Shown: piece after piece, positions 6,355 through 59,332 of the stretch | Layout of the letters: every line of letters starts with the position of its first letter | Position numbering within the stretch: the stretch's first letter is position 1 | Assembly (NCBI GenBank): GCA_937927515.1 | Contig: CALBDO010000002.1 | Location: 201,001 to 265,000, forward strand | DNA: 64,000 nucleotides | DNA from: Candidatus Kapaibacterium sp. | GTDB lineage: Bacteria > Bacteroidota > Ignavibacteria > Kapaibacteriales > UBA2268 | Reading direction: 5' to 3' | Made by a program: the position numbers and the translations under genes | The notes under the pieces: generated by a model | Database searches by the model: none | What the model saw: only the letters and a program-made list of their open reading frames with translations | Told to the model about the DNA's origin: nothing

Positions 6355-6374
6355 TCAAATCCGTATTTAATTCG

Positions 6375-8472: not shown

Positions 8473-8492
8473 GCCTTGTTTTTGACCTTTAG

Positions 8493-8520
8493 AGGGGTGG
8501 AATTTCCACCCCTTTTTATT
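8493..8520 (+). terminator. Rho-independent terminator
   Basis: GC-rich inverted repeat AGGGGTGGA/TCCACCCCT with a minimal AT loop followed by TTTTTATTTT, 20 bases after the stop of the cargo protein gene. Confidence 0.9.
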
Positions 8521-8604
8521 TTGGTGGCAAAGTGGTTACTATAAATTTTATTTAAAAAAAATTCATAAATTGCTACGATTCTTATTTACATTAAAGGAAT
8601 AAAA

Positions 8605-10659
8605 ATGGAAAACTCAAAACTTGATTTTCACATTAAGCTCGTAATAAGTGGTGAACGGCAATTTGAAAATGTGTTTCAATCCCTAACAAGAATGATTTTA
8701 GGCGACCCTTCAAAAATTGCTAAAGTTATTGTAAACGGAAGGCCAACCTACGATTTCTTGGTTTTTCGCGAAGGGAAGAAGCATCTTGTAGGTATGTTTG
8801 ATGAAATCAACAGTCTTGTATCATTCATTAAAGATGCTGCCGAGGGTGGTTCATCGGCAGAGATGGCTTTTGTGCTTATTGGTGAGCCCGGAAATGGAAA
8901 GACATTTTTTGTTGATTATTTAATGCAACTTTATCGGAACTTTGTTTCGAAACCTGAAAATAGAAGATATACCTTCAAGTTTAAGAATATAGAACAATTA
9001 GGAAGATATGGAAAAATCAAAGAGATTGAGTCGCAGACTTTCGAAGACCCTATGATTCTGGCAATGAACCTTTACGAGGAAAAGGAGAGAAACATAGAAT
9101 ACTTACAGAAACTTGGTGCCTCGGATGAGCAAATAACAAAGTTTTACAAACTATACAGACCACTTGGTGCTTGTACTTATTATATCTGGAATCAAATACG
9201 GGAATATTGTGATGGAGATATCAACAAAATGCTAGACTTCGTTGAAATTATTCCAGTACCAGTCTCTGAATCACGTGGTACCTTGACTGGGAAATATGCT
9301 GCAAAGGACAAAATTACCTCTTCGGCTGTAGATTTAATCGGTGAGGAATCAATCACAAGGCTCTTGAATATTGCTGATACAGACAATCCCTATCGTTTCG
9401 ACTTGCGTCGCGGTGCACTGGCACGTGTTGCTGGTGGGGGCATCCATTTCGCAGATGAAATCTTCAAAAATAAAAAGGACCTCATCCAAGTCTACCTCGG
9501 AGTAATACAAAATAGAACAATTGAAATCGAAGGCTTTAAATGGCCTCTCGACACCCTAATCATTGCAACAAGCAACAATAATGAATTTGCAAGATTTTTG
9601 GAAGAAAAAGAACAGGCACCAATTGTCGATAGATGCAGAGTGTGCTATATGTCGCACAATACCAACTACAAATTGCAAATGGAATTAACAAGATATGCAA
9701 TTGGAAGTTGGGAAAAAACAACATTTGCCGGGGAAAAATTACACATCGACCCAAATTTGGTTTATACAGCTTCTGTTGCTGTGATTCTGACAAGGATGCC
9801 GCGTTCAGAGAAATTAACACCAGTCGAAATGATGAAGCTTGCTGCTGGCGAAGTGGCAGGAGAAAAATCGTTGAAGACCTTGAGCGAGGTTATAAACGAA
9901 CTAAATGCCGACCCAGACATAACAAAGCGCTTTGGTCAAAAGGGGCTTGGGCACCGCAATCTCGGTAGAGCAATTCAAATACTTTTGGAACGAACGGAAA
10001 CTCAGGAAGGGAAATGTATGTATGCAGGGGATATCTTCCCAGCCCTCGAAACTGTTATCCTTGATTACGTCCAAGACCCAAACGATAGAATCAAGTATTT
10101 CAACGACTTGAAGCTTGCAAAGCAACTATATCGGCAAAATGTTTTGACTTCGATTTTCAATGCATATATGGACGAACCAGATGCAATCGAGCGCGACGTG
10201 ATGAACTATGTTAATATGATTATTGGCATCGACGCAAAAAATCTTGGCACTGATAAAATATGGACTTACCGAGACCCACGAACCGGGAAACTCGAGTCCT
10301 TGAAAATAGACGATTCCTTCATTAATGCTGTCGAAGAAAGGATGGGATTGAAAACTCGCGAACAAAAGCAAAGCTTCAGAACGACTATTATTAAAATCTA
10401 TGGTCAGAGAATTGTAAAGGACCCGAATTACAACTTTATGGACAATGCAGAATTGGTGAAAGCAGTTACTGATGTCCGCTTGAAGTCCGACATCTCTGGG
10501 GCTGGTAGCCTTGTCGGTGCTCTTTCCAATAGAACCAATGAAGAAAACCAACGATTGTATAATCGTATGATAGACACAATGATAAACAAGCTTGGTTATT
10601 GCCGAACTTGTGCCGAGAAAACTATTGAATATTTTTGTACACAAGAAGATGCAGCTTGA
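8605..10659 (+). CDS. prkA: PrkA-family serine protein kinase with AAA+ domain
   Basis: 684 aa. The N-terminal half is the PrkA AAA+ region: Walker A GEPGNGKT (93-100), the SRGTLTGKYAAKDKI stretch, and a Walker B/sensor block FADEIFKNKKDLIQVYLGVI with IIATSNNNEFARFLE. The C-terminal part matches the PrkA kinase-like domain. In Bacillus and E. coli (PrkA/YeaG) this protein is a stress- or starvation-linked kinase or ATPase. It is usually encoded beside a DUF444 protein (YeaH) and SpoVR; neither is here. Four bases separate its stop from the start of the nucleotidyltransferase gene, so they are probably co-transcribed. Length is slightly above the usual ~640 aa. Family call is firm; the phosphorylation target is unknown. 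Confidence 0.88.
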   Translation: MENSKLDFHIKLVISGERQFENVFQSLTRMILGDPSKIAKVIVNGRPTYDFLVFREGKKHLVGMFDEINSLVSFIKDAAEGGSSAEMAFVLIGEPGNGKTFFVDYLMQLYRNFVSKPENRRYTFKFKNIEQLGRYGKIKEIESQTFEDPMILAMNLYEEKERNIEYLQKLGASDEQITKFYKLYRPLGACTYYIWNQIREYCDGDINKMLDFVEIIPVPVSESRGTLTGKYAAKDKITSSAVDLIGEESITRLLNIADTDNPYRFDLRRGALARVAGGGIHFADEIFKNKKDLIQVYLGVIQNRTIEIEGFKWPLDTLIIATSNNNEFARFLEEKEQAPIVDRCRVCYMSHNTNYKLQMELTRYAIGSWEKTTFAGEKLHIDPNLVYTASVAVILTRMPRSEKLTPVEMMKLAAGEVAGEKSLKTLSEVINELNADPDITKRFGQKGLGHRNLGRAIQILLERTETQEGKCMYAGDIFPALETVILDYVQDPNDRIKYFNDLKLAKQLYRQNVLTSIFNAYMDEPDAIERDVMNYVNMIIGIDAKNLGTDKIWTYRDPRTGKLESLKIDDSFINAVEERMGLKTREQKQSFRTTIIKIYGQRIVKDPNYNFMDNAELVKAVTDVRLKSDISGAGSLVGALSNRTNEENQRLYNRMIDTMINKLGYCRTCAEKTIEYFCTQEDAA

Positions 10660-10663
10660 TTTT

Positions 10664-12229
10664 ATGGAAAATAAACTTCAAGAATCGTCTGAACCAAAAA
10701 AGAGAAAAAGAATTAAAAAATTTGAAACTATTTATCGAGCCTCTCCAGAATTAAAAATTGAAATTTCAGAGAAAAATATTCTTAAGATAGCAGAACTTGC
10801 AGCGCAACACAATTTTGAAATCTATTTAGTTGGCGGATATGTTCGTGATTATTTCCTTAAACGCAAGAAGAAAGATGCCGACTTTACTATCGTCGGCGAT
10901 GCCATCGAGTTTGCCAAAATTGTTGCAGAACACTTTCATTCAAAAGTTGTTGCATATCCCCGTTTTTTCACAGCAATGGTACCCATTGGTACATCTGAAT
11001 TCGAATTCGTAGGTACACGAAAGGAAGTATATCTCTCCAAAAGCAGAAAGCCGATTGTCTCTGTTGGTACATTGGAGGACGACTTAAAGCGAAGAGATTT
11101 TACTATCAATGCTTTGGCTGTATCTTTAAACCAAGAAACTTTTGGTAAATTAATCGACTTGTTCGATGGATATCAAGACTTGCAAAACAGATTGATACGC
11201 ACACCGCTCGACCCTCGGGCTACATTCGACGACGACCCACTAAGAATGCTACGAGCAGTTAGATTCTCTTCACAACTGGATTTTCAAATCGAGGAGTCTA
11301 CATTAGAAGCCATTAAAGAAATGAAAAATCGTATCGAAATTGTTTCGCAAGAGCGTATAACCGATGAACTAATGAAGATTATCGACTCTCCCATTCCCTC
11401 AAAAGGATTTGCCCTACTATTCACAACTGGCTTGTTGGAAAAAATTTTCCCAGAATTGTACGCCCTCTTTGGTGTGGAAACAATTGATGAAAATGGTGTT
11501 CAGTACTCGCATAAAGATGTATTCTTCCATAGTTTAAAAGTTTTAGATAAAGTTGCAGAGAATACAGACAACACTTGGCTACGATTCACTGCCTTGATAC
11601 ACGACATTGGAAAAGCAAAAACCAAGCGATTTATTCCTGGGGTAGGCTGGTCTTATCACGGACACGAAGAAATTGGAGCACGAATGATACCGAACATCTT
11701 TCGCCGTTTGAAGCTACCGATGGATAAAATCGAATATGTCGAAAAACTTGTCCGCTTGCACCAACGGCCAATGGCTCTGGTCGACGATGGAGTAACAGAC
11801 TCTGCTATCCGTAGGCTTGCAGCCTACGCTGGCGATGCACTCGAGGATTTATTTTTGCTTTGTCGATGCGATATAACCACAAACAACCCAAATTTAAACA
11901 AAAAGTATTTGAACAATTACACAAAAGTTTGGAAAAAAGTTCTGAAAGTACAAGAAAAAGACAAGCTCCGTCAATTTCAATCACCAGTCCGAGGCGAAGA
12001 AATCATGGAAATTTTTGGCTTACAACCATCTCCGGAAGTTGGAGTTATTAAAATTGCCATCGAAGAAGCTATCCTCGATGGTTTAATTCCGAACGAGTAC
12101 GAACAAGCCAAAAAATTCGTATTGGAAAGAAAAGAAGCGTGGAAAAAACTTTTGCAGACTATAGATGTACGAGAGATAAAGAAAGACAAAGACCTAATAA
12201 AGAAACTTTTTGATTACTCCATTGGGTGA
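10664..12229 (+). CDS. cca: CCA-adding enzyme / poly(A) polymerase family tRNA nucleotidyltransferase with HD domain
   Basis: 521 aa from ATG 10664; an ATG at 10649 is an alternative, and starts further upstream would overlap prkA. The class-II nucleotidyltransferase head shows YLVGGYVRDYFL and the metal-binding DADFTI motif, then KRRDFTINALAVSL and DPRATFDDDPLRMLRAVRFS (tRNA and primer recognition). An HD phosphohydrolase-type domain follows with ALIHDIGKAKTKRF and the HGHEEIG histidines. This architecture is usual for bacterial CCA-adding or A-adding enzymes, which repair and mature tRNA 3' ends. Both tRNAs in the window lack an encoded CCA, so such an enzyme is needed. Which nucleotides it adds cannot be told by eye. 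Confidence 0.88.
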   Translation: MENKLQESSEPKKRKRIKKFETIYRASPELKIEISEKNILKIAELAAQHNFEIYLVGGYVRDYFLKRKKKDADFTIVGDAIEFAKIVAEHFHSKVVAYPRFFTAMVPIGTSEFEFVGTRKEVYLSKSRKPIVSVGTLEDDLKRRDFTINALAVSLNQETFGKLIDLFDGYQDLQNRLIRTPLDPRATFDDDPLRMLRAVRFSSQLDFQIEESTLEAIKEMKNRIEIVSQERITDELMKIIDSPIPSKGFALLFTTGLLEKIFPELYALFGVETIDENGVQYSHKDVFFHSLKVLDKVAENTDNTWLRFTALIHDIGKAKTKRFIPGVGWSYHGHEEIGARMIPNIFRRLKLPMDKIEYVEKLVRLHQRPMALVDDGVTDSAIRRLAAYAGDALEDLFLLCRCDITTNNPNLNKKYLNNYTKVWKKVLKVQEKDKLRQFQSPVRGEEIMEIFGLQPSPEVGVIKIAIEEAILDGLIPNEYEQAKKFVLERKEAWKKLLQTIDVREIKKDKDLIKKLFDYSIG

Positions 12230-12294
12230 CCAAGAGAATACTTTGTAGAAAAGCACCATCCTATTTTGCTATCGGTGTCTAACAACCATAAAAA

Positions 12295-12326
12295 TTTGCA
12301 CATTCGAAATATTTTTTGTAATTTTG
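12295..12326 (+). promoter_or_regulatory. Bacteroidota-type promoter for tRNA-Lys
   Basis: TTTG at 12295-12298 and TAATTTTG at 12319-12326, separated by 20 bases, match the -33/-7 consensus (TTTG, TAnnTTTG) of the Bacteroidota primary sigma factor. The tRNA begins 4 bases after the -7 box, implying essentially no 5' leader. Confidence 0.55.
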
Positions 12327-12329
12327 AGT

Positions 12330-12403
12330 GCTCCTTTAGCTCAGTTGGCCAGAGCAGCTGACTCTTAATCAGCGGGTCGGGGGTTCGAGTCCCCCAAGGA
12401 GCA
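12330..12403 (+). tRNA. tRNA-Lys (anticodon CTT)
   Basis: Complete cloverleaf. The acceptor stem GCTCCTT pairs with AAGGAGC and is followed by discriminator A. The D-stem is GCTC/GAGC, the anticodon stem is GCTGA/TCAGC around loop CTCTTAA (anticodon CTT, reads AAG), and the T-arm is GGGGG TTCGAGT CCCCC. The 3' CCA is not encoded. Confidence 0.95.
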
Positions 12404-12555
12404 CTTTTAAAATGATTTAAGCTTCTTTCTTAATAAAGTTTGTTTCTCAATATTTAGGTAGTAAATTTCCGATTTAGTTAGAACAACAAGGATAAAGAAT
12501 TTTAAACACATTAACAAAATTAAGTGTTATCCTAACCCCACTTTTAGAGGAAAAA

Positions 12556-13296
12556 ATGGTGAAGACATCTCCCTATGATGCTGATTTTTACAAAGCAAGA
12601 ATTGATTCATTAAAATCTGCATCCCAAATTGTTCCATTTATTGTTAATCTGGTGAAACCTAAAAGTGTAGTCGATGTTGGCTGTGGAACAGGGGAATTTT
12701 TATCCGTTTTCGAAGAGATGGGTATACGAGATTATCTCGGAATCGACGGAAGTTGGGTTCTTAATCAAAGGTTGAGAATACCCAAAGATAAATTTTTGCC
12801 AATGAATCTTGAGGAACCGCAAGAATTGTCTAAAACTTTTGACTTAGCTATATCATTAGAAGTCGCCGAGCATCTATCAGCTGATGCTTCTGAAAAATTT
12901 GTGAAATTTTTAGTATCTCTTTCGGACTATGTGTTATTTTCCGCAGCTATTCCATTCCAAGGTGGTGTGAACCATATCAATGAACAATGGCCCGAATATT
13001 GGTTTCGACTTTTTAAAAAATATAATTACGTACCAATTGATATTTTCCGAAAAGAGTTCTGGAATAACGAAGATGTGGCTTTCTGGTATGCTCAAAATAC
13101 GTTTCTTTATGTTCATAATAATTTGGTAGATTCTAACCCTCTATTCGTTAAGAATCTGGTAAGCGAGAACTATATCAATGTGGTCCATCCTAAATTACTC
13201 CAGAAGGTGGTAGAGGAGCGAGATAAACTCTACAATACAATCCCATCTTTTATTAGGAAAATTTATTCTTTCATAAAAAAAATCAAAAAAAATTAG
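12556..13296 (+). CDS. SAM-dependent class I methyltransferase
   Basis: 246 aa, preceded by AGAGGA a few bases before the ATG. Motif I VDVGCGTGEFL (about 40-50) and an acidic end of the second strand (LGIDG) identify a Rossmann-type S-adenosylmethionine methyltransferase. DLAISLEVAEHL is the post-motif-II segment common to Methyltransf_23/11 proteins. The C-terminus ends in a lysine-rich tail. Such stand-alone enzymes often sit in glycan or cell-surface clusters, and exported-protein and glycosyltransferase genes follow here, but substrate is unknown. It is convergent with the lectin-like gene; only one base separates the stop codons. Confidence 0.8.
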   Translation: MVKTSPYDADFYKARIDSLKSASQIVPFIVNLVKPKSVVDVGCGTGEFLSVFEEMGIRDYLGIDGSWVLNQRLRIPKDKFLPMNLEEPQELSKTFDLAISLEVAEHLSADASEKFVKFLVSLSDYVLFSAAIPFQGGVNHINEQWPEYWFRLFKKYNYVPIDIFRKEFWNNEDVAFWYAQNTFLYVHNNLVDSNPLFVKNLVSENYINVVHPKLLQKVVEERDKLYNTIPSFIRKIYSFIKKIKKN

Positions 13297-42517: not shown

Positions 42518-42685
42518 TATAAATCGACCATAAAATCTAAAAATTTACCGACACTATAGTATTGACGAAACATTCTTATTAAAATTTCTAATTTTTTGAT
42601 TTTGTTAAACTAAAATACATAAACCGACACAAAGCATAGAATTTAGAAAATTTTATTAAATTAATTGGAATTAATTGGTAGAAAA

Positions 42686-45600
42686 ATGAAATACTTGTTT
42701 TATTTGTTTCTGCTTGTCTTGGCACTATTAGAAACCAAAGCATACGAGGAATACGACAACCCTTTAAGAAGAGCACTGGAGTTCACAAGACCGCGTGCCT
42801 ATCCTTTCGATAATGTGCCCGACTATGCGCGCCAGAATGCTTTCAAGCAAATGGAGGAGCTTTCCAACAAATTTCTTCCTTTCGTTTCTCTTGCAGAACA
42901 GCCCAAATGGAAACCAATTGGCCCGTTCGATATTGGCGGGAGAATTAAATCGATTGTGTTTCATCCGAGAAAAAACGGTTGGGTCTATGCCGCAGCCGCA
43001 GCAGGTGGGATTTGGTTCTCCACTGATTACGGAAACATATGGGAACCTATATTCGACTTTGAGAATGGAATAGCCTTTGGTGCTCTGGCAATTGATGCCA
43101 ACAATCCAAATGTGCTTTATGCAGGTACTGGAGAATCTGTTATCGGTGGTGGAACAATTTACCTTGGCAATGGGCTTTACAAATCTACTGATGAAGGAAG
43201 AAATTGGAAATTGATTGGGCTCTCGGAAGTTGGTGCTTTCTCGAAAATCTATGTTCATCCCAGAAATTCAAACATTGTTGTTGCCGGGGCAACGATACGA
43301 AAGCCAGGATTTTACCTCTCCACCGACGGTGGTCTATCTTGGAATAGACTTTTAGACAAAAATATAACCGATTTATCAATCAACCCACACAACGAAGCAG
43401 AGTATTTCGTTGCCGTTAATGGTGATGGCGTATACTTTACTTCCGATTTAGGAAAAACCTGGCTAAAACGTAGCAATGGTTTCGAAGCGGGAGCGGGCAG
43501 AATTTCTGTTCAATTTGCTCCCTCCAACCCGAATATTGTGTATGCCCTTTTGGATGTAAGTTCACAGGGATTAATCTATCGGTCCGAAGATAAGGGCTCG
43601 ACCTGGACGCTTGTTTACCGCGGTTCAACAGATTTCTTCCGCAATCAAGGGTTTTACAATCAGTTTATCGAAGTACATCCTACAGACCCCAAAATCGTAC
43701 TTGCCGGCGGTATCGATATCTACCGGTCGAGCGACGGGAAGAATTTCACCAACGTCACAAATGGGTACTCGGGCGGAAGAGTACATGTCGACCAACATTG
43801 TGCAGCATTCTCTCCCATAAACCCAAATATCGTTATGATTGGAAATGATGGTGGGGTGTATCTTTCCACCGACGCTGGCATAAATTGGCAAGCCAAAAAT
43901 AATAACCTGCAAGTCACTCAATTTTATGGTTTCGACATAGACCATACGAAACCCAATATGAATTTTGGAGGCACCCAAGATAATGGCACCCTTGGCACCA
44001 ACTCGGATGAAGATTGGTACTTCGTTGCTGGTGGCGATGGCTTTCGAACTGTTGTCGACCATACAAATCCTTACATAATCTACGGGCAATCGACACCTGG
44101 TGGCATCATCAAACCATTCAAAATAAATTTGCAAACTGGCCAATTTTCATATATAGACAAAGGCATCGACTTCAACGTTGGAGTTTGGGACCCACCGTTG
44201 ATTATGGACCCATATTATAATTATATTCTCTATTATGGTCGAGATAAACTTTATGCTACTTACTCCGGTGGCTCAAGTTGGGAGACACTTCCTACACCAA
44301 AGGTCAATGGCCGATACACCGCAATCGGTATCTCCCCTGTAAATTCGGAAGTAATAATGGCTGGAACAAGTGGCGGGGACGTAATCGTCACAAAAGATGC
44401 TGGCGAGACCTGGAAAATTGTTTCCAACAATGGTTTAGTAAATCGCTGGGTAACTGATATCGAATTTTCCAATCAAAACCCTGCGACTGCTTTCGTTAGC
44501 TTCTCGGGTTTTTACACACCGCATATTTTCAAGACTACTGATTATGGCGAATCTTGGGTCGACATTAGCAAATCTCTCCCCGATATTCCTATTAATGCCA
44601 TAGCAATACATCCTTTCAACGATGATATTATCTTCGTTGGGACAGACATTGGAGTATTCGCAACATACGATGGTGGGGCTAATTGGTTTCCATTTGGTAA
44701 TGGGTTGCCTCGAAGCCCTGTCACAGATTTAAAGTTCTCGAAATACCAATTGACTTCTGCAACTATCCCTTTGCGGGCTGCAACACACGGTCGCGGTATA
44801 TGGGAGGCAACTATTCCATTAGAGGTTATAAATAACTACGAAATCACTTCCCCTGCTGGTGGAGAAATTTTTGTAAGCACCACTAATCAAGTCATTTCCT
44901 GGTATGGTTTCGTTCCTCCAGTTAAAATTGAATACTCCCCAAACGATGGTATCGACTGGTATACTATTGCAGAGAATGTAGCGAGCTCTCCAATGCTGTG
45001 GAAAATCCCTAACATTTCTACTGGCTTCGCAAGAGTGAGAATCACTTCGCAAAGTAATCCAAATCAAACGAAAATTTCAAATACATTCACAATATCATTG
45101 GTAGATAAAGGTTCTATTTTAACACAAACAAGCGTAAATGTAATTCCTTATGGAATTGCTTTTGATGGGAGAAACGGACTCTGGGTTACAAGTTTCAGTT
45201 CAAACCAGTTACTTAAACTTGATGCACGAACTCTCACAAGGATTAAAAACATCAAGCTTCCGGGCGACAGTCTCTTCACAGACATTGCATACGACCGTGA
45301 AAGAGACATCATATATATTCATAGAATGAATAGCACAAGTGGTAATGGAGGGTATGTTTTGGTGGTGGATACAAATGGCAACTTGATTCGTCAATTTGTC
45401 AGCCCCGCAAATGTTTATCCCATTGGCATAGAAGTTTTCGATGGAAAATTGTTGCTCGGCGACAGGGACAAGAAAGACCAATATGGCAAACAAGTACTTA
45501 TGATTGTCGACCCAAATACTGGAGCCGTGGAAGCAACCTATCAAAATCCTTATTCAAAAACTTATGGTCCGAGAGGCTTGGCATACGACCGGCAAAATTT

Positions 45601-46132
45601 CGTTTATCAGATAGGGACACACTTTCCAAACGCTGGGGCACTTACAGAAGCGGTAATAAGTAGAATTTCTAAACACGACCTGAGCAAAGAAGTCGAAAGA
45701 ATTAATCTTCAATCTCCAACAGGTATTATTAATGCTCGGGGGATTGAATTCGACCCGCAAGACAAAAACTTTTGGGTAACGGATTACTCCGGTAATATTT
45801 ACAAAATAGCTGGTTTCGATTTAATTCTTTCGGCAGAAAGTATATATGAGAGACATTTTGAGCCTAATTCCAAAAATGTAGAAATTTATCCAGTCCCAAC
45901 TAAAGACTACCTATTTATGAAAATCCCGTCCAACTTGTTTACAAATCTATTAACTATCGAAATTTACGACCAAATTGGTTCATTGATTTTACAACGTGAA
46001 GTAAACAAAAGTGGAAGTTATTCCTCAACTATAAGAATAAACACTAATGATTTGTGCTCTGGTATATATTTTGCAGTTTTTAGATTTTCCGATGGCAAGA
46101 GTTTAGTTGAAAAATTTTTCGTGGTGAAGTAG
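42686..46132 (+). CDS. 1,148-residue Asp-box beta-propeller protein with T9SS sorting domain
   Basis: Start ATG 42686 (an in-frame TTG at 42665 is less likely). Signal peptide about 1-20. Residues about 50-720 carry about a dozen Asp-box (S/TxDxGxxW) repeats such as WFSTDYGNIWEP, YKSTDEGRNWKL and FKTTDYGESWVD, the sortilin/BNR type propeller, with GGTQDNGTLGT and THGRGIWEA at the hubs. A shorter Ig-like module (about 725-815) and a second propeller of NHL type (about 820-1040) follow. The C-terminus is a T9SS type-A sorting domain (EIYPVPTKDYLFMKIPS, SGIYFAVFRFSDGK, EKFFVVK). It is 3 bases before the MotB-like gene. No glycosidase site is visible. Confidence 0.87.
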   Translation: MKYLFYLFLLVLALLETKAYEEYDNPLRRALEFTRPRAYPFDNVPDYARQNAFKQMEELSNKFLPFVSLAEQPKWKPIGPFDIGGRIKSIVFHPRKNGWVYAAAAAGGIWFSTDYGNIWEPIFDFENGIAFGALAIDANNPNVLYAGTGESVIGGGTIYLGNGLYKSTDEGRNWKLIGLSEVGAFSKIYVHPRNSNIVVAGATIRKPGFYLSTDGGLSWNRLLDKNITDLSINPHNEAEYFVAVNGDGVYFTSDLGKTWLKRSNGFEAGAGRISVQFAPSNPNIVYALLDVSSQGLIYRSEDKGSTWTLVYRGSTDFFRNQGFYNQFIEVHPTDPKIVLAGGIDIYRSSDGKNFTNVTNGYSGGRVHVDQHCAAFSPINPNIVMIGNDGGVYLSTDAGINWQAKNNNLQVTQFYGFDIDHTKPNMNFGGTQDNGTLGTNSDEDWYFVAGGDGFRTVVDHTNPYIIYGQSTPGGIIKPFKINLQTGQFSYIDKGIDFNVGVWDPPLIMDPYYNYILYYGRDKLYATYSGGSSWETLPTPKVNGRYTAIGISPVNSEVIMAGTSGGDVIVTKDAGETWKIVSNNGLVNRWVTDIEFSNQNPATAFVSFSGFYTPHIFKTTDYGESWVDISKSLPDIPINAIAIHPFNDDIIFVGTDIGVFATYDGGANWFPFGNGLPRSPVTDLKFSKYQLTSATIPLRAATHGRGIWEATIPLEVINNYEITSPAGGEIFVSTTNQVISWYGFVPPVKIEYSPNDGIDWYTIAENVASSPMLWKIPNISTGFARVRITSQSNPNQTKISNTFTISLVDKGSILTQTSVNVIPYGIAFDGRNGLWVTSFSSNQLLKLDARTLTRIKNIKLPGDSLFTDIAYDRERDIIYIHRMNSTSGNGGYVLVVDTNGNLIRQFVSPANVYPIGIEVFDGKLLLGDRDKKDQYGKQVLMIVDPNTGAVEATYQNPYSKTYGPRGLAYDRQNFVYQIGTHFPNAGALTEAVISRISKHDLSKEVERINLQSPTGIINARGIEFDPQDKNFWVTDYSGNIYKIAGFDLILSAESIYERHFEPNSKNVEIYPVPTKDYLFMKIPSNLFTNLLTIEIYDQIGSLILQREVNKSGSYSSTIRINTNDLCSGIYFAVFRFSDGKSLVEKFFVVK

Positions 46133-46135
46133 AAG

Positions 46136-46921
46136 ATGTTCTTAAAAAAATTGCAAAAGAAAGAAGAAGAGACTGGGCGAACAAGTGCGGATAGATACTT
46201 AATCACCTATGCAGATTTAATAACTTTGCTGTTAGGTTTATTCGTTATTCTGTATGTAACAGCGCGTGTCGACGAGGAAAGATACAAGGAATTTGCAAAA
46301 GCATTTTCCGAGTTTTTCAAATCCAAAGATGGCAAAGAGATATCCGGAGAAGGATTAAGTCCTTTTTTAGGTGTAAAAAAAGGCATACCCGAACCAGTTT
46401 TGCCATACGCAGACCGGCGCAATTTGAAAGAAATTCAATCAGACATTGTTAAAAATTTAGAAAACTACCTGCAAAGGGGAGAAATTGCAATCGAGGCAAA
46501 GGGGGCTAGCCTCGTGATTACATTGCCGGAGAAGCTTTTATTTAAATCTGGCAAAGCCGAGATTGAACCAGAGGGAGAAGAAGTTATCTCTCGGCTTGCA
46601 ATAGCTCTTTTTGGACTTGCACGAGACCAAGAGGTCGCAATAGATGGACATACCGACAGCGACCCAATCCGAAGTTTCCGTTACCCCTCGAATTGGCACC
46701 TCTCAGTTGCCAGAGCTGTAAATGTTGCTTTTCTTTTAATTAGCAAAGGAGTACCAGAACATTCCATTGTTGTACGCGGTTTTGCCGACCAAAGACCTAT
46801 TGCTGATAATGCAACCCCAGAGGGCAAAGCCAAAAATCGTCGCGTAGAAATTACAATCTCGGAGCAAAAACCCAATGTTCCAAACACAAAAGGTTACGAG
46901 GCAAATGAAAAAGGTCGTTAA
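46136..46921 (+). CDS. MotB-like OmpA-domain protein
   Basis: 261 aa. A short cytoplasmic tail precedes one transmembrane helix containing YAD at residues 25-27 (YLITYADLITLLLGLFVILY). The Asp at 27 matches the proton-carrying residue of MotB. After a linker, the C-terminal OmpA-like peptidoglycan domain has VAIDGHTDSDPIR and WHLSVARAVNVAFLL with NRRVEI. In flagellated bacteria MotB pairs with MotA; no motA or flagellar gene is nearby. Overlaps of 3 and 17 bases or less join it to the propeller and OMP genes. It could instead be a stator-like part of gliding, secretion or envelope transport. Confidence 0.75.
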   Translation: MFLKKLQKKEEETGRTSADRYLITYADLITLLLGLFVILYVTARVDEERYKEFAKAFSEFFKSKDGKEISGEGLSPFLGVKKGIPEPVLPYADRRNLKEIQSDIVKNLENYLQRGEIAIEAKGASLVITLPEKLLFKSGKAEIEPEGEEVISRLAIALFGLARDQEVAIDGHTDSDPIRSFRYPSNWHLSVARAVNVAFLLISKGVPEHSIVVRGFADQRPIADNATPEGKAKNRRVEITISEQKPNVPNTKGYEANEKGR

Positions 46922-47669
46922 AATTGTTGCTCTTTTTGCAGCATTAGGAATTTCTTGCAATCATTACATTGCTTTCGCTCAATTCATACCAGAACCAATT
47001 TATATTTTTGAACTACCCACTGCAGGCGTGCTTCGCAAGGGGGAATTTTCAGTCGAATCGAACTTTTTCAAATTTGGTGGACTACGCCTCGCATTCAATC
47101 TCGCCCCTTTTAAAAATTTTATCTTCGGAGCTTCTTTTGGCGGTACCTACTTAATCGGAGTATCCAAAATACAATTTCAAAAATACCCCGGCATCCTCCT
47201 AAAGTATCGCCTCATCGACGAAGAAATGAGCTTTCCCGCTATCGCTTTAGGAGTATCAACTCAAGGCTTCGGTCCGTTCTATGGTAATGAAAATCGATTC
47301 GAAACATTCTCCCCTGGTGTGTTTCTCGTTGGAAGCAAAGCTTTTAAAAACTATCTTGGTACGTTCGACCTACATCTCGGATTCAACTATTCCTTCGAAC
47401 CAAAGCCTCGAGATAGGACAATTAGCTTCTACGTTGGACTTTGCCAAACAGCATTGAATTTTATTCGATTAAATTTGGAATATAATGCAAATTTGGACGA
47501 AGGGACAAACATTATGTTGAAAAACAAAGGTTTGTTGAATTTTTCAATTGATTTCTTTTTGAGATATAATATCAAATTTGGGATTAGTTTAAAAGACTTA
47601 CTTGGAAATTTAAAAAACACTACTTCCCCCGAGAGAAACCTATTTTTTCAGTACACTGGTAATTTTTAA
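46905..47669 (+). CDS. Predicted outer-membrane beta-barrel protein
   Basis: 254 aa from ATG 46905; an upstream in-frame ATG (46875) would remove the signal peptide from the N-terminus. The signal peptide MKKVVKIVALFAALGISC ends near AFAQ. The mature part has alternating strands (FAPTAGVL-like ELPTAGVLRKGEFSVES, FPAIALGVSTQGFGPFY, LGTFDLHLGFNYSF, NFIRLNLEYN) typical of small porin- or YjbH-like barrels. No family is recognised. It overlaps the MotB-like gene by 17 bases, so the three genes 42686-47669 probably form one transcript and may act together. Confidence 0.7.
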   Translation: MKKVVKIVALFAALGISCNHYIAFAQFIPEPIYIFELPTAGVLRKGEFSVESNFFKFGGLRLAFNLAPFKNFIFGASFGGTYLIGVSKIQFQKYPGILLKYRLIDEEMSFPAIALGVSTQGFGPFYGNENRFETFSPGVFLVGSKAFKNYLGTFDLHLGFNYSFEPKPRDRTISFYVGLCQTALNFIRLNLEYNANLDEGTNIMLKNKGLLNFSIDFFLRYNIKFGISLKDLLGNLKNTTSPERNLFFQYTGNF

Positions 47670-50067: not shown

Positions 50068-50835
50068 CTAAACCAAATAATAGACTTCTGGGCTTGTACC
50101 AAGCTCTGGCTTACGACGGATAGAAAATCTATTGGCTAGCACTTTTCGCACCTCGGAGCTTGGGTCGTCTAAATCTCCAAAAATTAGTGCATTTGATGGA
50201 CAAGCCTCGACGCAAGCAGGCATCTGGCTACGCGAAAGTCTCTCTGCGCAGAAAGTGCATTTCTCCACAACACCTCGGGTCCTTGTTGGAAATTGTGGAT
50301 TAAACTCTTTTAAGAAAGGACGTGGGTCGCGCCAGTTGAAACTACGCGAACCATAGGGGCAAGCTGCAACACAATATCGACAACCAATACAGCGATGCCA
50401 ATCCATCATAACTATCCCATCTTCTCGCTTCCAGGTGGCTTTCGTGGGGCAGACATTTGTACAAGGTGGATTATCGCAATGGTTACACAATAATAAAACC
50501 AGCTGGTGCTTCATCCCTTTTGGTAGATAAGGATTCTCCTGTGTTACAAATGCATTGTGAAAGTAATCCTTCCAAATCCATTTAATTTCATCTTTAGGAT
50601 TGTCAAACTGAGGAACATTGTGATAAGAATGGCAAGCAACAATACATTTATTGCAATTCGGTGATTGCTCGCACTTTTCTAAATCTATAGCCATTGCCCA
50701 GCGTTTGGCTTTCAATCCACTGGAAGGTTCATCATTTCGCTCAGATTGTGAAATCAAATCCGACGTAAATTTCGTTGCAAGAGCAATACCACCGCCAAAG
50801 CTTACAATTTTTATGAAATTCCTTCTATCTATCAT
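50068..50835 (-). CDS. dsrO: DsrO-like periplasmic ferredoxin with Tat signal
   Basis: 255 aa. The N-terminus DRRNFIKIV is a twin-arginine signal, so the folded protein is exported. Sixteen cysteines fall in four groups (55/61/64/68, 117/120/125/129, 149/152/155/159, 193/196/208/212), four [4Fe-4S] clusters as in DsrO and related NrfC/HybA proteins. It would pass electrons in the periplasm between DsrJ and the membrane partner. It follows dsrJ with a 4-base ATGA overlap; a strong Shine-Dalgarno (AGGAGG, 6 bases before ATG at 50842-50847) sets the start. It is last in the operon: no DsrP (NrfD-like) gene follows. Confidence 0.9.
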   Translation of the reverse strand: MIDRRNFIKIVSFGGGIALATKFTSDLISQSERNDEPSSGLKAKRWAMAIDLEKCEQSPNCNKCIVACHSYHNVPQFDNPKDEIKWIWKDYFHNAFVTQENPYLPKGMKHQLVLLLCNHCDNPPCTNVCPTKATWKREDGIVMMDWHRCIGCRYCVAACPYGSRSFNWRDPRPFLKEFNPQFPTRTRGVVEKCTFCAERLSRSQMPACVEACPSNALIFGDLDDPSSEVRKVLANRFSIRRKPELGTSPEVYYLV

Positions 50836-51242
50836 CTGCTACCTCCTTTTGGTTCAATGTGACAATCCCAGCAATATGGTTTTACATCCAAATAATTATG
50901 ACATTGGTCGCAGAAATTTTTCTTATTGCTGTGACATTTCAAACAAGTAAGCGTCAAGCTCATTTCCAATTTATTGCCATTATGAGTTAAGATATTACCA
51001 TTACGAACAACATATCTCACATTCATTCTTACAACACTGTCGCGCCAGCGATTCAATAAATCCATATGAAAATGGTTCATATAATCTTTTGCTTCTACAC
51101 ATTCTTTTGCATCTTCGGGATAGACAAGCTTGGGTTTTACTTTGCTTTCAGCGGAAGTCAAATTCAACCAAATAGGCAAGGTGAAAAAACCAGTAAAGAT
51201 AATTAAACCAATTGTAATCTTCCAACCATCGTAAAGTTTCAT
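50832..51242 (-). CDS. dsrJ: DsrJ-like triheme cytochrome c
   Basis: 136 aa. An N-terminal membrane anchor/signal (residues 8-26, ITIGLIIFTGFFTLPIWL) is followed by three CxxCH heme sites: CLKCH (100-104), CDQCH (111-115) and CWDCH (124-128). The segment ECVEAKDYMNHFHMDLLNRW places Cys48 where the unusual distal Cys ligand of DsrJ heme is found; His/Met candidates lie just after. DsrJ is the periplasmic cytochrome of the DsrMKJOP complex. Start and stop overlap neighbours by ATGA on both sides, with GGAGGAG about 7 bases before the ATG. Confidence 0.9.
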   Translation of the reverse strand: MKLYDGWKITIGLIIFTGFFTLPIWLNLTSAESKVKPKLVYPEDAKECVEAKDYMNHFHMDLLNRWRDSVVRMNVRYVVRNGNILTHNGNKLEMSLTLTCLKCHSNKKNFCDQCHNYLDVKPYCWDCHIEPKGGSR

Positions 51243-52852
51243 AATTTCTCCTCCACATTATTCAAAGGATTCAAACGAAGGTCCACTTCGCGTGGCTTCT
51301 CCCCAGTCATAACGAGGGCATTGCCAACCATTTCGTGTACTCCACCAACTTCGAGACCTGGGACCCAAAATTCAAACAAAGGCGGAAGGTTTGCCTTGTC
51401 TATTGCGCAAATGCATAAACAAATGTTAACACCATATTTATCGCGAACAAATTTAGCGGCGTTTGCACGTGGAAATCCACCACGCATACGCATTTCAAAG
51501 TTCTCGTCTGTACCAATTCCAGAGCCACTTCCACAACAGAATGTCTGCTCTCGAATTGTGTTGTCGGGCATTTCGGTGAATTTACGCATAACATTTTTGA
51601 TTATGTAACGGGGTTCCTCGAGTAGTCCCATCCCGCGCGAAGGGTTGCATGAGTCGTGGAAAGTAGCATGCCAATGGTCATTTCGGCTTGGGTCGAGTTT
51701 GATTTTGTTGTGGTAAATCAAATCTGCTGTAAATTCACAGATGTGAACCATCTTGGTCGACTTTGCGTTTTCAAATACGGTGCCAGTAATTGGCGAGCGG
51801 GGAACTTCGAGGAAATCTGCCGGACCGTTCATTGTATCCATGTACTGATGAATTACACGCCACATATGCCCACATTCCCCGCCGAGAATCCACTTTACGC
51901 CAAGCCTCTTTGCTTCTGCATATATCTTGTTGTTCAATCTTTTCATCAACTCGTGAGAAACAAAGGAGCCAAAGTTGCCACCCTCGGAAGCATAAGTGCT
52001 GAAAGTATAGTCCAGACCAATTTCATGAAAGAGCATCATATACCCCATAAGTGTGTAGTAATGAGGCGTTGCAAAATAATCTGCTGATGGAGTAACAAAA
52101 AGAATTTCAGCACCTTTTTTATTTATGGGAACATCTATATGAATTCCTGTAATTTCTTCGATATCTGCAGCAGCCATTTCCAAGCTATCTTTCATACCGT
52201 GGGGTTGAACTCCAAGGTGATTGCCAGTGCGGTAAGAGTTTTTCACCGGCGTCATAATCCAATCGATATTCACACCAATTAAATTCATTAGCTCGCGAGT
52301 TAGAAAAGTAATTTCGGCAGTGTCGATGCCATAAGGGCAGAAAACCGAACACCTACGGCATTGTGTACACTGATAAAAATAGTAGAACCATTCCTTGAGG
52401 ACATCGAAAGTAAGTTCGCGAGCACCTACCATTCGTCCCATTAGTTTACCAGCGGTAGTAAATTCCCTTCTATACACAGAGCGTAGAAGCTCTGCACGAA
52501 GAACTGGCATATTCTTTGGGTCGCCAGAGCCAAGAAAGAAATGACATTTATCTGCACAAGCTCCACATCGCACACAGATATCCATGAAAATTTTCAACGA
52601 ACGGTATTTTTCCAATCGCTCTCGAAGCCCTTCGAGAATAATTTCCTGCCAATTCTCTGGTAATTTCCAATCGGGGTCCGTCACTTGCCATTTTCGCGGG
52701 TTCGGCTGGTCGAGATATATCAAAGCCTCTTCACTCCCAGCATAATTGAATGTACCTTTACGAAAGTCTACGGGAACATCCATCCAATTTCGATACTTAG
52801 GCTTAAGGTTGAATGTTTTAATCAATTCTTCAGGTTTAATTTTGCTCGACAT
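51239..52852 (-). CDS. dsrK: DsrK, HdrD-like iron-sulfur catalytic subunit
   Basis: 537 aa. Two [4Fe-4S] ferredoxin motifs at CVRCGACADKC (C93/96/99/103) and CTQCRRCSVFC (C162/165/168/172). The C-terminal half holds CCG-type motifs of heterodisulfide reductase: GECGHMWR (C327), HDSCNPSRGMG (C402) and CCGSGSGIG (C439-440), plus a Cys cluster near 478-482. In sulfate reducers DsrK takes electrons from the membrane and reduces the DsrC trisulfide in the cytoplasm. A Shine-Dalgarno (AGGAGG) is 6 bases before the ATG, overlapping the end of dsrM. Length fits DsrK (about 530-560 aa). Confidence 0.95.
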   Translation of the reverse strand: MSSKIKPEELIKTFNLKPKYRNWMDVPVDFRKGTFNYAGSEEALIYLDQPNPRKWQVTDPDWKLPENWQEIILEGLRERLEKYRSLKIFMDICVRCGACADKCHFFLGSGDPKNMPVLRAELLRSVYRREFTTAGKLMGRMVGARELTFDVLKEWFYYFYQCTQCRRCSVFCPYGIDTAEITFLTRELMNLIGVNIDWIMTPVKNSYRTGNHLGVQPHGMKDSLEMAAADIEEITGIHIDVPINKKGAEILFVTPSADYFATPHYYTLMGYMMLFHEIGLDYTFSTYASEGGNFGSFVSHELMKRLNNKIYAEAKRLGVKWILGGECGHMWRVIHQYMDTMNGPADFLEVPRSPITGTVFENAKSTKMVHICEFTADLIYHNKIKLDPSRNDHWHATFHDSCNPSRGMGLLEEPRYIIKNVMRKFTEMPDNTIREQTFCCGSGSGIGTDENFEMRMRGGFPRANAAKFVRDKYGVNICLCICAIDKANLPPLFEFWVPGLEVGGVHEMVGNALVMTGEKPREVDLRLNPLNNVEEKL

Positions 52853-52853
52853 A

Positions 52854-53855
52854 TCAATCCTCCTTTTCTACTGGAATACCTGCTGCAATCATTTTGTCGC
52901 GGAACTCTTCTTCGTACTCCTCGTATGTATGAACAGGCACATCATAATTCCATGGATTGATGTGCCTCTTCATTCTATTGTTGTTTGCCAAATTTCTCGT
53001 CGGCGAAAGAAACACTCCCCCAAGATGCACTAATTTGCTCAACGGGAAATAAATAAGCAAAGTGCAAACAAAAAAGAAATGAATAGCAAACAACGGACTG
53101 AGCTTATTTATTAATTCTTGGCTGACAGCTTGAAACGAGAGAACAGACACAGTGAATTCCTTTACTGCAACGAGGTCTGTCTTGAAAAAGTAACGAAGCA
53201 AAACGCCCGTCGTAGCAATACCCAAGATAAGAAGCAAGGGAAAGTAATCCGATGGAAGCGAGATAATGCGAACTTTGCTATTGAAAATTCTTCGCAAGAA
53301 AAGAAAAGTTAATCCAGATAGGATAAGTACATCTGTAATATAGATTATTGGCAATCCTACTTGAAAGAAGCCATCTATATTCTGAAGGAAGCCGACGAAA
53401 CTTGGAATCGGCTCGGTGAAAAATCGAAAATGCCTGAGAAAAATAATCAAAAAAGACCAATGAAAAGCAAGGCTAAAGAACCAAAGCCATTTGTCTACCG
53501 AGTAGACAAGGCGGTCGTCTTTGAACTCTGCTCGTGTATTGCGGAAAAGCGAGCGAAAGAATAAAATTTCGAGCAACATTCTACCAAGTGTTCCCAAAGC
53601 AGAGCTTGGGTTATCAAGCTTGTTTTGGCGTATCCAAGGTAAAGACTTCTCCTGCCCACAAGTTGTTGTTATTCGGAAAGGAACTGGGGACCGTCCCCAT
53701 CTTAAAATCCTAATGATTAGACCTATGACAAATACTGCCAAAGCAACATATGGCACGTATGCCATAAAAAATACTTTCAGAAAGGGGACAATCCCAGCTA
53801 TCCAACCTACAGCAAGCACAAGCAAAAATGAAATTAAAGAAATCCCTAATCCCAT
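52854..53855 (-). CDS. dsrM: DsrM, membrane cytochrome b subunit (NarI-like)
   Basis: 333 aa from ATG 53855, which has AAGGTG 7 bases ahead; GTG 53864 is an alternative. Six membrane segments are predicted, including WLWFFSLAFHWSFLIIFL, IIYITDVLILSGLTFLFL and LFAIHFFFVCTLLIYFPL, with His residues in helices as heme b ligands (for example HWSF, AIHF). The cytoplasmic C-terminal signature HLGGVFLSPTRNLANNN followed by RHINPWNYD is the DsrM hallmark. It oxidises menaquinol and passes electrons to DsrK; its ATG lies 12 bases after the RsbRD-N stop and its own stop is 1 base before dsrK. Confidence 0.95.
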   Translation of the reverse strand: MGLGISLISFLLVLAVGWIAGIVPFLKVFFMAYVPYVALAVFVIGLIIRILRWGRSPVPFRITTTCGQEKSLPWIRQNKLDNPSSALGTLGRMLLEILFFRSLFRNTRAEFKDDRLVYSVDKWLWFFSLAFHWSFLIIFLRHFRFFTEPIPSFVGFLQNIDGFFQVGLPIIYITDVLILSGLTFLFLRRIFNSKVRIISLPSDYFPLLLILGIATTGVLLRYFFKTDLVAVKEFTVSVLSFQAVSQELINKLSPLFAIHFFFVCTLLIYFPLSKLVHLGGVFLSPTRNLANNNRMKRHINPWNYDVPVHTYEEYEEEFRDKMIAAGIPVEKED

Positions 53856-53867
53856 AACCAACACCTT

Positions 53868-54392
53868 CTATTTATTCTCATTGTTATCGTCTTTCAAAGA
53901 AGAGTACCTTTGGTTTAGTCTTTCAAGTATTTTCCCATATTGATTCCTAAGCTCGTTTTTTTGTATCTCGGCAATAAGCTGTTGTATTTCTATGAACTTA
54001 CTTAAACTTTTTGCAAGTAATTTGTGATAATAAGGAATTGAATTTAAAATCTGTTCATTGTTCCCAAAGAATTTACTCTCTTCGATGTATCTAGTCCAAA
54101 GATACTCGAAAAAATTAACCGTTTGCCATGGGTCGGTACACTGCGAAGTGCGAATTTTTAAAATCATTGCTAAAGCATCATCGAACTCCTTTGATTCAAT
54201 ACTGCCATTGCTTATATTTTCAAGCAATTTATGAAGGTTCTGATTTAGATTGTATCCAACGGGATTTGTAAATGCATCTTCTTTCTTCATAAAATAATTC
54301 CTCGATGGCTCTGGGTAGCTCTCAACAATCCATTTAAACCAATCCTCTGCCAAATTGCTCTCGCAAGATTTTATGTACTCAATAAAATTCAT
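53868..54392 (-). CDS. Stand-alone RsbRD N-terminal domain protein, first gene of dsr operon
   Basis: 174 aa with no membrane segment. The core (about 1-110) matches the RsbRD_N sensor fold: LAEDWFKWIVESYPEPSRN, DAFTNPVGYNLNQNLHKLLE and ALAMILKIRTSQC, DPWQTVNFFEYLW. In many DsrMKJOP-bearing sulfur bacteria a protein of this domain precedes dsrM, so its place here is conserved. RsbRD_N occurs as the input part of stressosome proteins; its role with DsrM is unknown. The C-terminal 60 residues (about 110-174) are a helical, charged extension (LNQRYSSLKDDNNENK). Confidence 0.85.
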   Translation of the reverse strand: MNFIEYIKSCESNLAEDWFKWIVESYPEPSRNYFMKKEDAFTNPVGYNLNQNLHKLLENISNGSIESKEFDDALAMILKIRTSQCTDPWQTVNFFEYLWTRYIEESKFFGNNEQILNSIPYYHKLLAKSLSKFIEIQQLIAEIQKNELRNQYGKILERLNQRYSSLKDDNNENK

Positions 54393-54408
54393 ATAATATT
54401 TTCAATTA

Positions 54409-54436
54409 GGTATATCTAATTTAACATCATAGTCAA
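54409..54436 (-). promoter_or_regulatory. Possible sigma-70-type promoter of the dsr operon
   Basis: On the minus strand TTGACT (54436-54431) is followed after 16 bases by TATACC (54414-54409), then the ATG 16 bases further on. There is no TAnnTTTG box at the expected position, unlike several other genes here. A 5/6 and 4/6 match can arise by chance. Confidence 0.25.
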
Positions 54437-54594
54437 ATTGAAACTTTTAGCAAAGATGGTTTTGTATTTTTTTTGTTGATAATCTAATTAAAATCAATAG
54501 AATACCAAGTCGACGAAGTAACTGCTTGAGAGGCTAGGCGATAGTGAAATTGGGTTGGGAAATTTAAACTATAAAAAAAACATTAGAGGTGGGC

Positions 54595-57769: not shown

Positions 57770-57787
57770 AATAAAAAGGAGGTGAAA

Positions 57788-59332
57788 ATGAATCCACGTA
57801 AGCCCATTTTAAGCGAGGATTGGCTTTCTCTATGGTTGGGACTTTTTATTTTTCTACTCTCGCTCGGAGTTATTTTCAATCTTGACTTACTTGGCTGGGG
57901 TATTAAAACCTCCACCTGGGTAAATCTTTCCGATGCTTTCTCGACTGTTTCAAAAAATTACGTTGGTCTATCGCCAATCGTTTCAATTGTACTTACATAT
58001 TTGTTCCTTTTAATCGTGGTCGGTTTTGGGAATTGGCTACTTGGTGGAAATCCAGTAAAGTTTTTCTATGCTTTTACAATAATTTTCATCATCAGCTTCG
58101 CTTGTTGGGTCTTGGGCAACCAAGCAAATATTGCCGCAACGACGCCTTCGGAATTTCAAAAATTTGGTATAACCTGGTCGCTGAAATTGACTGGCGAGGC
58201 AGGATTTATCATTGCTCTTGTTGTCGGCTTGCTCGTAAGCAACTTATTCCCAAAATTTGCAGAAAGTTTAAAACCAGCTGTAACCCCAGAGCTTTACGTT
58301 AAAACAGCAATTGTTATCATGGGCGCCGGCGTAGGTATCAAAGCTATTGAGAATGCATCCCTTGCATTTTCGATTGTATTTCTCGGGTTGTGTTCCATTT
58401 TAGCAGCATACCTAATATTTTGGTCTGTTGTTTATTACATTGCCAGAAAGTATTTTAAGTTCAGTCGAGAATGGGCAGCCCCGCTTGCTTCTGGAATTTC
58501 AATCTGTGGTGTTAGTGCTGCAATTGCCACTGGTGCAGCAATTCGTTCCCGACCAGTAGTTCCTATCATGGTATCGTCCTTGGTAGTGATTTTTGCCGTT
58601 GTAGAGTTATTAATTTTACCATTCCTTGCTCAACAATTTTTATGGAACGACCCACTTGTAGCTGGGGCTTGGATGGGTCTGGCTGTAAAAACCGACGGCG
58701 CTGCTACGGCAAGCGGTGCAGTAGCCGATGCCCTAATCCTGGCAAAAGCAGCAGAAAATGGGGTCCTTTATCAAAAAGATTGGGTCTTGAACACTGCAAC
58801 CAATGTTAAAGTTTTTATCGACGTGTTTATTGGAATCTGGGCTTTTGTCCTTGCTTATATCTGGACGAAGCATTTCGAAACAGACGACAAACGCAACGGT
58901 AAAGTACCAGCCCGACAAATCTGGGAGCGTTTCCCGAAATTCGTTATTGGTTACATTCTAACATTTTTAATCTTTCTCGTCATCGGCTTATCCAGCCCAG
59001 AATTTGTTAAGAAAACAATTGTAGAAACAAAAAAAGTTGAACAAATCGATTCCAGTGGCAATGTGCAACAGGTAGCTATTCAAGAAACTAAAAAAGTCCC
59101 CGGCGTTGGTGTTCAATCCACAAACCAGGCAAATGTATTCAGAACTCTATTCTTTGTTTTAACTTTCTTCACAATTGGTGTGGTATCAAACTTCCGCAAA
59201 CTTTGGGAAGAAGGGATTGGTAAACTCGCCGCTATATATATTATTGCGCTTTTTGGTTTCATCATTTGGATAGCATTGTTTATCTCTTGGCTATTTTTCC
59301 ACAATGTTCTACCACCAACTATATCTGGTTAA
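57788..59332 (+). CDS. YeiH-family membrane transporter (putative sulfate exporter)
   Basis: 514 aa from ATG 57788 (GTG 57782 is in the Shine-Dalgarno; AAGGAGGTGA at 57776-57785 is near perfect). About 11-12 membrane segments. Two inverted halves carry family motifs: KTAIVIMGAGVGIKAIE and SGISICGVSAAIATGAA, then AGAWMGLAVKTDGAATASGA. This matches the YeiH/PF03601 family, annotated as putative sulfate exporters on indirect evidence. It is longer than E. coli YeiH (about 350 aa): the C-terminal region has an inserted hydrophilic stretch (about 400-445, VETKKVEQIDSSGNVQ) between helices. It lies between dut and a 50-residue membrane protein. Confidence 0.75.
   Translation: MNPRKPILSEDWLSLWLGLFIFLLSLGVIFNLDLLGWGIKTSTWVNLSDAFSTVSKNYVGLSPIVSIVLTYLFLLIVVGFGNWLLGGNPVKFFYAFTIIFIISFACWVLGNQANIAATTPSEFQKFGITWSLKLTGEAGFIIALVVGLLVSNLFPKFAESLKPAVTPELYVKTAIVIMGAGVGIKAIENASLAFSIVFLGLCSILAAYLIFWSVVYYIARKYFKFSREWAAPLASGISICGVSAAIATGAAIRSRPVVPIMVSSLVVIFAVVELLILPFLAQQFLWNDPLVAGAWMGLAVKTDGAATASGAVADALILAKAAENGVLYQKDWVLNTATNVKVFIDVFIGIWAFVLAYIWTKHFETDDKRNGKVPARQIWERFPKFVIGYILTFLIFLVIGLSSPEFVKKTIVETKKVEQIDSSGNVQQVAIQETKKVPGVGVQSTNQANVFRTLFFVLTFFTIGVVSNFRKLWEEGIGKLAAIYIIALFGFIIWIALFISWLFFHNVLPPTISG

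Follow-up and report, generated by a model that had tools for sequence, protein, structure and literature searches.

The dsrTMKJO unit of a Kapabacteria genome and its detached dsrP gene

The DsrMKJOP complex of dissimilatory sulfur metabolism spans the membrane: according to PMC8076601, DsrJ and DsrO lie outside, DsrM and DsrP in the membrane and DsrK inside, where it acts on DsrC; the same paper presents quinone cycling between DsrMK and DsrJOP as a proposal. The operons for this complex in reductive-type sulfate/sulfite reducers usually have the order T-M-K-J-O with dsrP directly after dsrO. A departure from this order is already in print: Thiel et al. (2019; PMC6338057) described in Candidatus (Ca.) Thermonerobacter thiotrophicus a dsrT upstream of dsrMKJO, a dsrP located elsewhere and expression at night, with the 20 DSR genes of the genome MS-B_bin-24, from the hot-spring mats of Mushroom Spring, peaking at night, dsrP included. 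These authors argue for sulfate reduction on the grounds of DsrAB phylogeny, gene content and night expression. PMC10591310 also lists the group, under the family name UBA2268 (Kapabacteria), and gives it DsrD and DsrL-2. Here we report on a stretch of 64,000 nucleotides (nt) from Candidatus Kapaibacterium sp., contig CALBDO010000002.1 (G000:C2:201001-265000, hereafter the window), which carries a dsrTMKJO unit without dsrP. It belongs to a metagenome-assembled genome (MAG), G000, of 2.39 Mb in 41 contigs and 98% completeness, which is congeneric with Ca. Thermonerobacter thiotrophicus. The finding is thus explained and in essence already known, both the lineage and the arrangement having been published (PMC6338057). 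We consider it very likely that the organism is a sulfate reducer of the Kapabacteria and that the unit encodes part of a normal DsrMKJOP complex of the reductive type, with DsrP supplied by a lone gene and most likely joining in trans.

The unit consists of five near-contiguous open reading frames (ORFs) on the minus strand at positions 50068-54392 of the window, separated by gaps of 1 to 3 nt or overlapping by 4 nt. It opens with dsrT (53868-54392; 174 amino acids, aa), recognized by its place and by PF14361, whose product is a lone RsbRD_N domain with a predicted non-haem globin fold of the RsbR type. There follow: dsrM (52854-53864; 336 aa), encoding the NarI-like di-haem b membrane subunit with an SPTRN tail (NF038037, 484.6 bits; PF02665); dsrK (51239-52852; 537 aa), for the cytoplasmic HdrD-like subunit acting on DsrC (NF045796, 733.7 bits, and its position in a tree); dsrJ (50832-51242; 136 aa), for the periplasmic tri-haem cytochrome c (NF038038, 145.4 bits, and its haem sites); and dsrO (50068-50835; 255 aa), for a ferredoxin-like protein with an N-terminus resembling a twin-arginine translocation (Tat) signal (NF045797, 312.4 bits), which closes the unit 20 nt from the end of the convergent topA. 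All four of the latter exceed the curated NCBIfam equivalog cut-offs (300 for DsrM, 400 for DsrK, 100 for DsrJ and 200 for DsrO) and are specific Dsr types, not generic HdrD or NarI relatives. DsrJ has three CxxCH motifs, at residues 100, 111 and 124, as well as Cys48, a candidate ligand that is invariant in all 14 aligned family members; DsrO has 16 cysteines and an RR motif close to its N-terminus; DsrK has two CxxCxxCxxxC sites and a single CCG tripeptide, at residue 439. On the same strand, the 202 nt between accC and dsrT (54393-54594) are likely to hold the leader and promoter of the unit, and a block with ATACAAAA 5' of dsrT recurs, possibly by chance, in all four dsr-bearing genomes of the genus (g1).

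A first-pass annotation had recognized a tightly coupled minus-strand DsrMKJO unit at this place that ends at dsrO, 20 nt from topA, without a dsrP, and the features it listed for DsrM, DsrJ and DsrO stand as described above. It was right on the two ferredoxin sites of DsrK and slightly generous in writing of CCG motifs in the plural, and its span included the fifth ORF, dsrT, which it left unnamed. It further offered two explanations for the missing gene: a four-subunit variant of the complex, or a dsrP elsewhere in the genome.

The second explanation is the one borne out by the genome, which encodes five NrfD-family proteins, one of them a true DsrP (G000:C2:105926-107095; 389 aa; NF045798, 465.6 bits against a cut-off of 350). 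This gene lies outside the window, on the same contig and strand, 144 kb from dsrO, flanked by an acyltransferase-type gene and a divergent pair of ABC-transporter-type genes (the pair judged by eye). Of the 20 residues given for the Desulfovibrio vulgaris DsrP in PMC8076601, it keeps 18: a single offset of +4 accounts for 17 of them and +3 for one, and the two that differ are R to K and S to T; other offsets between -10 and +10 matched two residues at most. The other four NrfD-family proteins were rejected as DsrP: they score 98.6, 67.6 and 46.1 bits or give no DsrP match, and by eye each of their genes adjoins its own molybdopterin- or iron-sulfur (FeS)-type genes. When compared with solved structures, the DsrP sequence found only weak matches, to NrfD/ActC-type chains, and the DsrJ and DsrK sequences found none.

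A genuine four-subunit DsrMKJO, with the distant NrfD-like protein serving some other enzyme, would fit a unit that lacks dsrP and a dsrP that stands alone beside an ABC transporter. We regard this as very improbable, since the distant gene is a DsrP equivalog that retains the DsrP residues and shows conservation among the congeners; throughout the family it is found together with dsrMKJ, by eye it has no gene for a catalytic partner next to it, and in MS-B_bin-24 it peaks at night like the other DSR genes (PMC6338057). The first-pass suggestion of a four-subunit variant is hence unsupported. Nor is the detached dsrP decaying, because its nonsynonymous divergence (dN) within the genus is low: 0.065-0.090, as compared to 0.035-0.064 for dsrK, and below the 0.121-0.164 of dsrM, 0.092-0.171 of dsrJ and 0.103-0.156 of dsrO (dN alone was used; the synonymous divergence, dS, is saturated or undefined for most pairs).

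Comparison with the congeners and the wider family places the arrangement in context. MS-B_bin-24 (RCNO01000021.1; G037) represents another species of the same genus, with 93% identity in dsrK, 89% in dsrP and 44% in dsrT; like the window it has a dsrT-M-K-J-O unit with dsrP elsewhere, while the neighbours of the unit differ. In Ca. Kapaibacterium sp. Ch6 (CP058732.1, titled a complete genome; G036), likewise of this genus and nearest by path in the DsrMKJOP tree, dsrP lies 138 kb from dsrO on the same strand, as in the window's genome; the flanks of its unit differ from those in the window, with neither topA nor accC adjoining. Across 54 genomes of the family, counting matches above cut-off, DsrM and DsrP occur in 13 each and DsrJ and DsrA in 14 each, and their co-occurrence breaks only in three genomes: G008 (ChocPot, RCNQ01000084.1), with a cut contig and no DsrP; G009 (76% complete), with DsrM cut by a contig end and no DsrA; and G018, with DsrA only. 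Among the 14 DsrJ-bearing genomes dsrP directly follows dsrO in seven (G003, G009, G034 and G050-G053) and is detached in six: four of genus g1 (G000, G036, G037, G038) and two of genus g5 (G004, G005). The fourteenth, G008, is not classifiable, as its contig ends inside dsrO and no DsrP above cut-off is present elsewhere. Outside G000 and G036, the detached dsrP is on another contig than dsrO (four genomes); the five detached loci that were fetched extend 6.1 to 9.5 kb past dsrO without a dsrP, and in the window topA comes next. A second set, the named DsrK loci, comprises the best 80 of 568 candidate relatives, is biased to close kin and overlaps the family set: dsrP directly follows dsrO in 70 (including L120, with a weak dsrP of 26% identity) and does not in two, both of genus g1 (L080, L081); three end at or inside dsrO and five have no dsrO. 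Hence, 70 of the 72 decidable loci are linked, in contrast to the 144 kb in the window's genome.

These comparisons also bear on whether the arrangement might be an assembly artefact or a chimera. The source is a MAG in 41 contigs, and in none of the other g1 genomes does topA or accC adjoin the unit. Against this, the flanking topA and accC both have their best match in the same genus (eight genomes searched), the G+C content is even (0.375-0.434 across 40-64 kb of the window), dsrP and dsrO are likewise apart in three more congeners, including the single-contig CP058732.1, and in two genomes of another genus, and the same arrangement has been stated in print (PMC6338057). There is thus no sign of a chimeric contig, and we hold such an error to be exceedingly improbable.

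Two genomes of the family show departures of a different kind. G018 carries dsrAB, apr, qmoC, dsrL, dsrC and M2K2, its DsrM and DsrK (L072:12251-14505) being short and divergent; no DsrJ match and no DsrP above cut-off were found in the genome, DsrO not having been sought genome-wide, and it looks like an MK-only system within an otherwise MKJOP family. G039, of the window's genus and 98% complete, has no match to DsrA, DsrM or DsrJ and no DsrP above cut-off; here the pathway has apparently been lost or was lacking. A dsrA match in G003 (G003:C15:37259-38428) contains one in-frame TAA.

In a tree of DsrMKJOP from 29 genomes (14 of the family and 15 hand-picked from the 80 named loci) the family forms one clade (100/100), and the window groups with Ch6, G038 and MS-B_bin-24. 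With G008 left out, detachment of dsrP needs one change on this tree, in which the fork joining g1 and g5 is unsupported. A tree of DsrK, made by a quick method from 64 rows (15 from the family, 37 named, taken as every second from L086 on, and 12 of 29 fetched from family f26), places 14 of the 15 family sequences beside DsrK labelled Melioribacteraceae and Bacteroidetes and away from f26, which we take for Chlorobiaceae; the fifteenth, from G018, forms a very long branch. Among 395 genomes drawn evenly from the phylum, only eight of them from the window's family, DsrK above cut-off occurs in 61: G000 and 60 members of f26. The first-pass placement in the Bacteroidota/Chlorobiota stands, now as Kapabacteria with named congeners, and its description of Dsr genes as rare in this group is fair, even if the lineage and arrangement are not novel (PMC6338057).

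The neighbourhoods of dsrP suggest how the split arose. In g5, 4 nt after dsrP, there is a gene for a 555-aa protein that resembles CoA-disulfide reductases, scores below the cut-offs for them and has a C-terminal rhodanese domain; it is followed by hemA. The protein may be persulfide reductase-like. The reductase gene directly follows dsrP in 17 of the 64 named loci with room for it (32 to 50% identity), with hemA next in 10 of these 17; the labels of 11 of the loci read Ignavibacteria/Melioribacteraceae, Bacteroidetes or Zixibacteria. In seven of seven genomes (G000, G036, G037, G038, G003, G050, G051) the reductase gene is full length, adjoins hemA and is not beside dsrP; in G009 the reductase-hemA pair is on the dsr contig, 5.7 kb past dsrP. 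G034 has a reductase fragment, and G039, the congener without dsr genes, only a weak match of 29%. The simplest reading is that an ancestral dsrTMKJOP-(CoA-disulfide-reductase/rhodanese)-hemA operon was broken stepwise: g5 would have a break between dsrO and dsrP, g4 and g27 one between dsrP and the reductase gene, and g1 both. In the open-access literature we found no published account of such a stepwise break, and a search for a dsrP-hemA linkage gave nothing relevant among the papers listed. As a separate observation, the three genes ahead of topA in the window (42665-47669) have relatives in MS-B_bin-24 (G037, 5793-13137) that adjoin dsrP and its ABC neighbour, a gene order which hints at a rearrangement joining the places of the dsr unit and dsrP.

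The genome carries the remainder of the pathway: dsrABCLN, sat, aprAB and qmoABC. Contig C6 has on one strand sat-aprB-aprA-hyp-hyp-qmoC-dsrA-dsrB-(84-aa ORF)-dsrN-hyp-dsrL-dsrC-dsrM2-dsrK2 (hyp, hypothetical), the order also seen in MS-B_bin-24 (sat-aprBA-hyp-hyp-qmoC-dsrAB-D-N-hyp-L-C-M2-K2), and on the opposite strand qmoA-like and qmoB-like genes. Sat, AprA, AprB, QmoC, DsrB and DsrA are all above cut-off, and DsrC was found and retains both C-terminal cysteines. QmoA and QmoB, which are HdrA relatives encoded by adjacent genes, the latter with PF02662, are named from family relation and adjacency, neither reaching its equivalog cut-off. The labels dsrN, dsrL, dsrM2 and dsrK2 go by place and relation, following Thiel et al. 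(PMC6338057): DsrK2 scores 304 bits against a cut-off of 400, DsrM2 31 against 300, and DsrL is named by its place and NAD(P)-binding family. The genome search proposed in the first-pass annotation has therefore recovered dsrAB, dsrC, dsrL, dsrP, aprAB, qmoABC and sat, with the 84-aa ORF at the position expected for dsrD.

Dsr complexes of this kind also serve sulfur oxidisers and a DsrL is present, so the system might run in reverse, an option which is compatible with a five-subunit complex with dsrP in trans. We consider it unlikely: no match to the DsrE family (PF02635) was found at E 0.001 in the genome, which at 98% completeness indicates that dsrEFH are absent (as a control, the same profile has matches in 8 of 14 genomes); DsrK clusters apart from f26, our presumed Chlorobiaceae; and Thiel et al. 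favour reduction on the three grounds cited above (PMC6338057).

Other sulfur-related and respiratory genes were noted in passing. Further on, C6 has a psrABC-like set, two genes of sulfur-transport type and one of rhodanese type (by eye; psrC is of the NrfD family), and transporter and sulfurtransferase genes of such a kind are mentioned near the Nakabusa DSR operon (Thiel et al., PMC6338057). The genome also has two molybdopterin oxidoreductase-FeS-NrfD sets, psr/nrf-like (L011:4847-9490 and L009:9532-13239), and two alternative-complex-III-like sets on C6 and C32, recognized by eye apart from their NrfD subunits. In the window itself, 3.4 kb from the dsr unit, the plus strand at 57782-59332 encodes a 516-aa membrane protein of the YeiH/UPF0324 type (PF03601), which matches TIGR00698 (putative sulfate export transporter) below cut-off.

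Taken as a normal DsrMKJOP complex with DsrP in trans, the five subunits would assemble into a single complex in the membrane, with menaquinol as electron donor and the DsrC trisulfide as acceptor, an analogy with the known mechanism that nothing seen in the sequence contradicts. DsrM, with haem b, and DsrP, NrfD-like with a quinone site and an ion path, would sit in the membrane; electrons from menaquinol would pass to DsrK; and DsrK would reduce the trisulfide that DsrAB makes on DsrC, giving sulfide and reduced DsrC. Several points weigh against this reading. The gene set, its conservation and the position of dsrP are observed; the assembly of DsrP with the other four subunits, the path of the electrons and the direction (reduction or oxidation, in a genome that has DsrL) are inferred. 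The upstream region of the separate dsrP is its own, its neighbours are different, and it may be under separate control. The 84-aa ORF, which follows dsrB directly as it does in the congeners, has no match in Pfam, NCBIfam or PHROG and no PDB sequence better than E 0.15; its dsrD label is positional only. In 47 of the 64 named loci with room no reductase gene stands behind dsrP, for which reason the case for a longer ancestral operon is drawn from the nearest lineages. Finally, the source is a MAG and not an isolate.

With regard to control, short blocks in the window at 54393-54552 and upstream of dsrP, before position 9096 of L010, are conserved in all four dsr-bearing g1 genomes, and TACAAAA is common to the blocks 5' of dsrT and dsrP, which may reflect shared control or chance. 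Upstream of dsrT, dsrP and sat no match was found to the consensus forms of the CRP/HcpR and FNR sites that were tried, only the short shared TACAAAA.

The remaining component, DsrT, lies upstream of dsrMKJO in the congeners too (PMC6338057). Its function is described as unknown (PMC11406059), and a possible role in regulating dsrMKJOP is suggested from homology (PMC10504309). Of the 75 named loci holding dsrO, 58 have the gene upstream of dsrK; of the other 17, ten end before dsrK and seven have room with no dsrT seen. In the family it is present in 12 of 14 loci, the other two being cut. PF14361 matches all 24 DsrT proteins scanned, the one in the window with 38.7 bits against a cut-off of 24.3. 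Its AlphaFold model is all helix (predicted local distance difference test, pLDDT, 90.7). A Foldseek search with this model gave no match below E 0.001; upon re-alignment to PDB chains the best was the N-terminal domain of RsbR (2bnl; Z 11.2, root-mean-square deviation 3.3 over 124 residues); globin-coupled sensors and related sensor domains ranked next, with Z of at most 9.7. The RsbR match hence comes from the second aligner and Pfam, and for helical bundles Z values below about 13 may carry little meaning. DsrT is accordingly best described as a predicted lone globin-fold domain of the RsbR type. Alignment of 24 sequences shows W18, Y26, F41, N43, P44, R81 and Q84 to be invariant; haem binding is doubtful because no histidine is invariant. 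Within the genus dsrT diverges much more rapidly than the other genes of the complex (dN 0.39-0.59 versus 0.035-0.171 for M, K, J, O and P). The literature searched yielded no paper treating DsrT together with RsbRD.

Separate control of dsrP may allow the complex to be made with or without its NrfD-like, possibly ion-translocating subunit, with DsrT, as a lone RsbR-type globin-fold sensor, acting as the switch. We think this quite improbable; if true, menaquinol oxidation could proceed without charge movement while conditions in the mat alternate between oxic and anoxic. The predicted fold itself provides a testable lead on DsrT. More generally, the locus cautions that a single operon is no basis for inferring a four-subunit variant. 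A five-subunit respiratory complex tolerates the detachment of one subunit gene, as seen in two genera with six such genomes between them, while in most relatives the gene stays in the operon, and the detached dsrP offers a natural experiment on the need for DsrP together with DsrMKJO.

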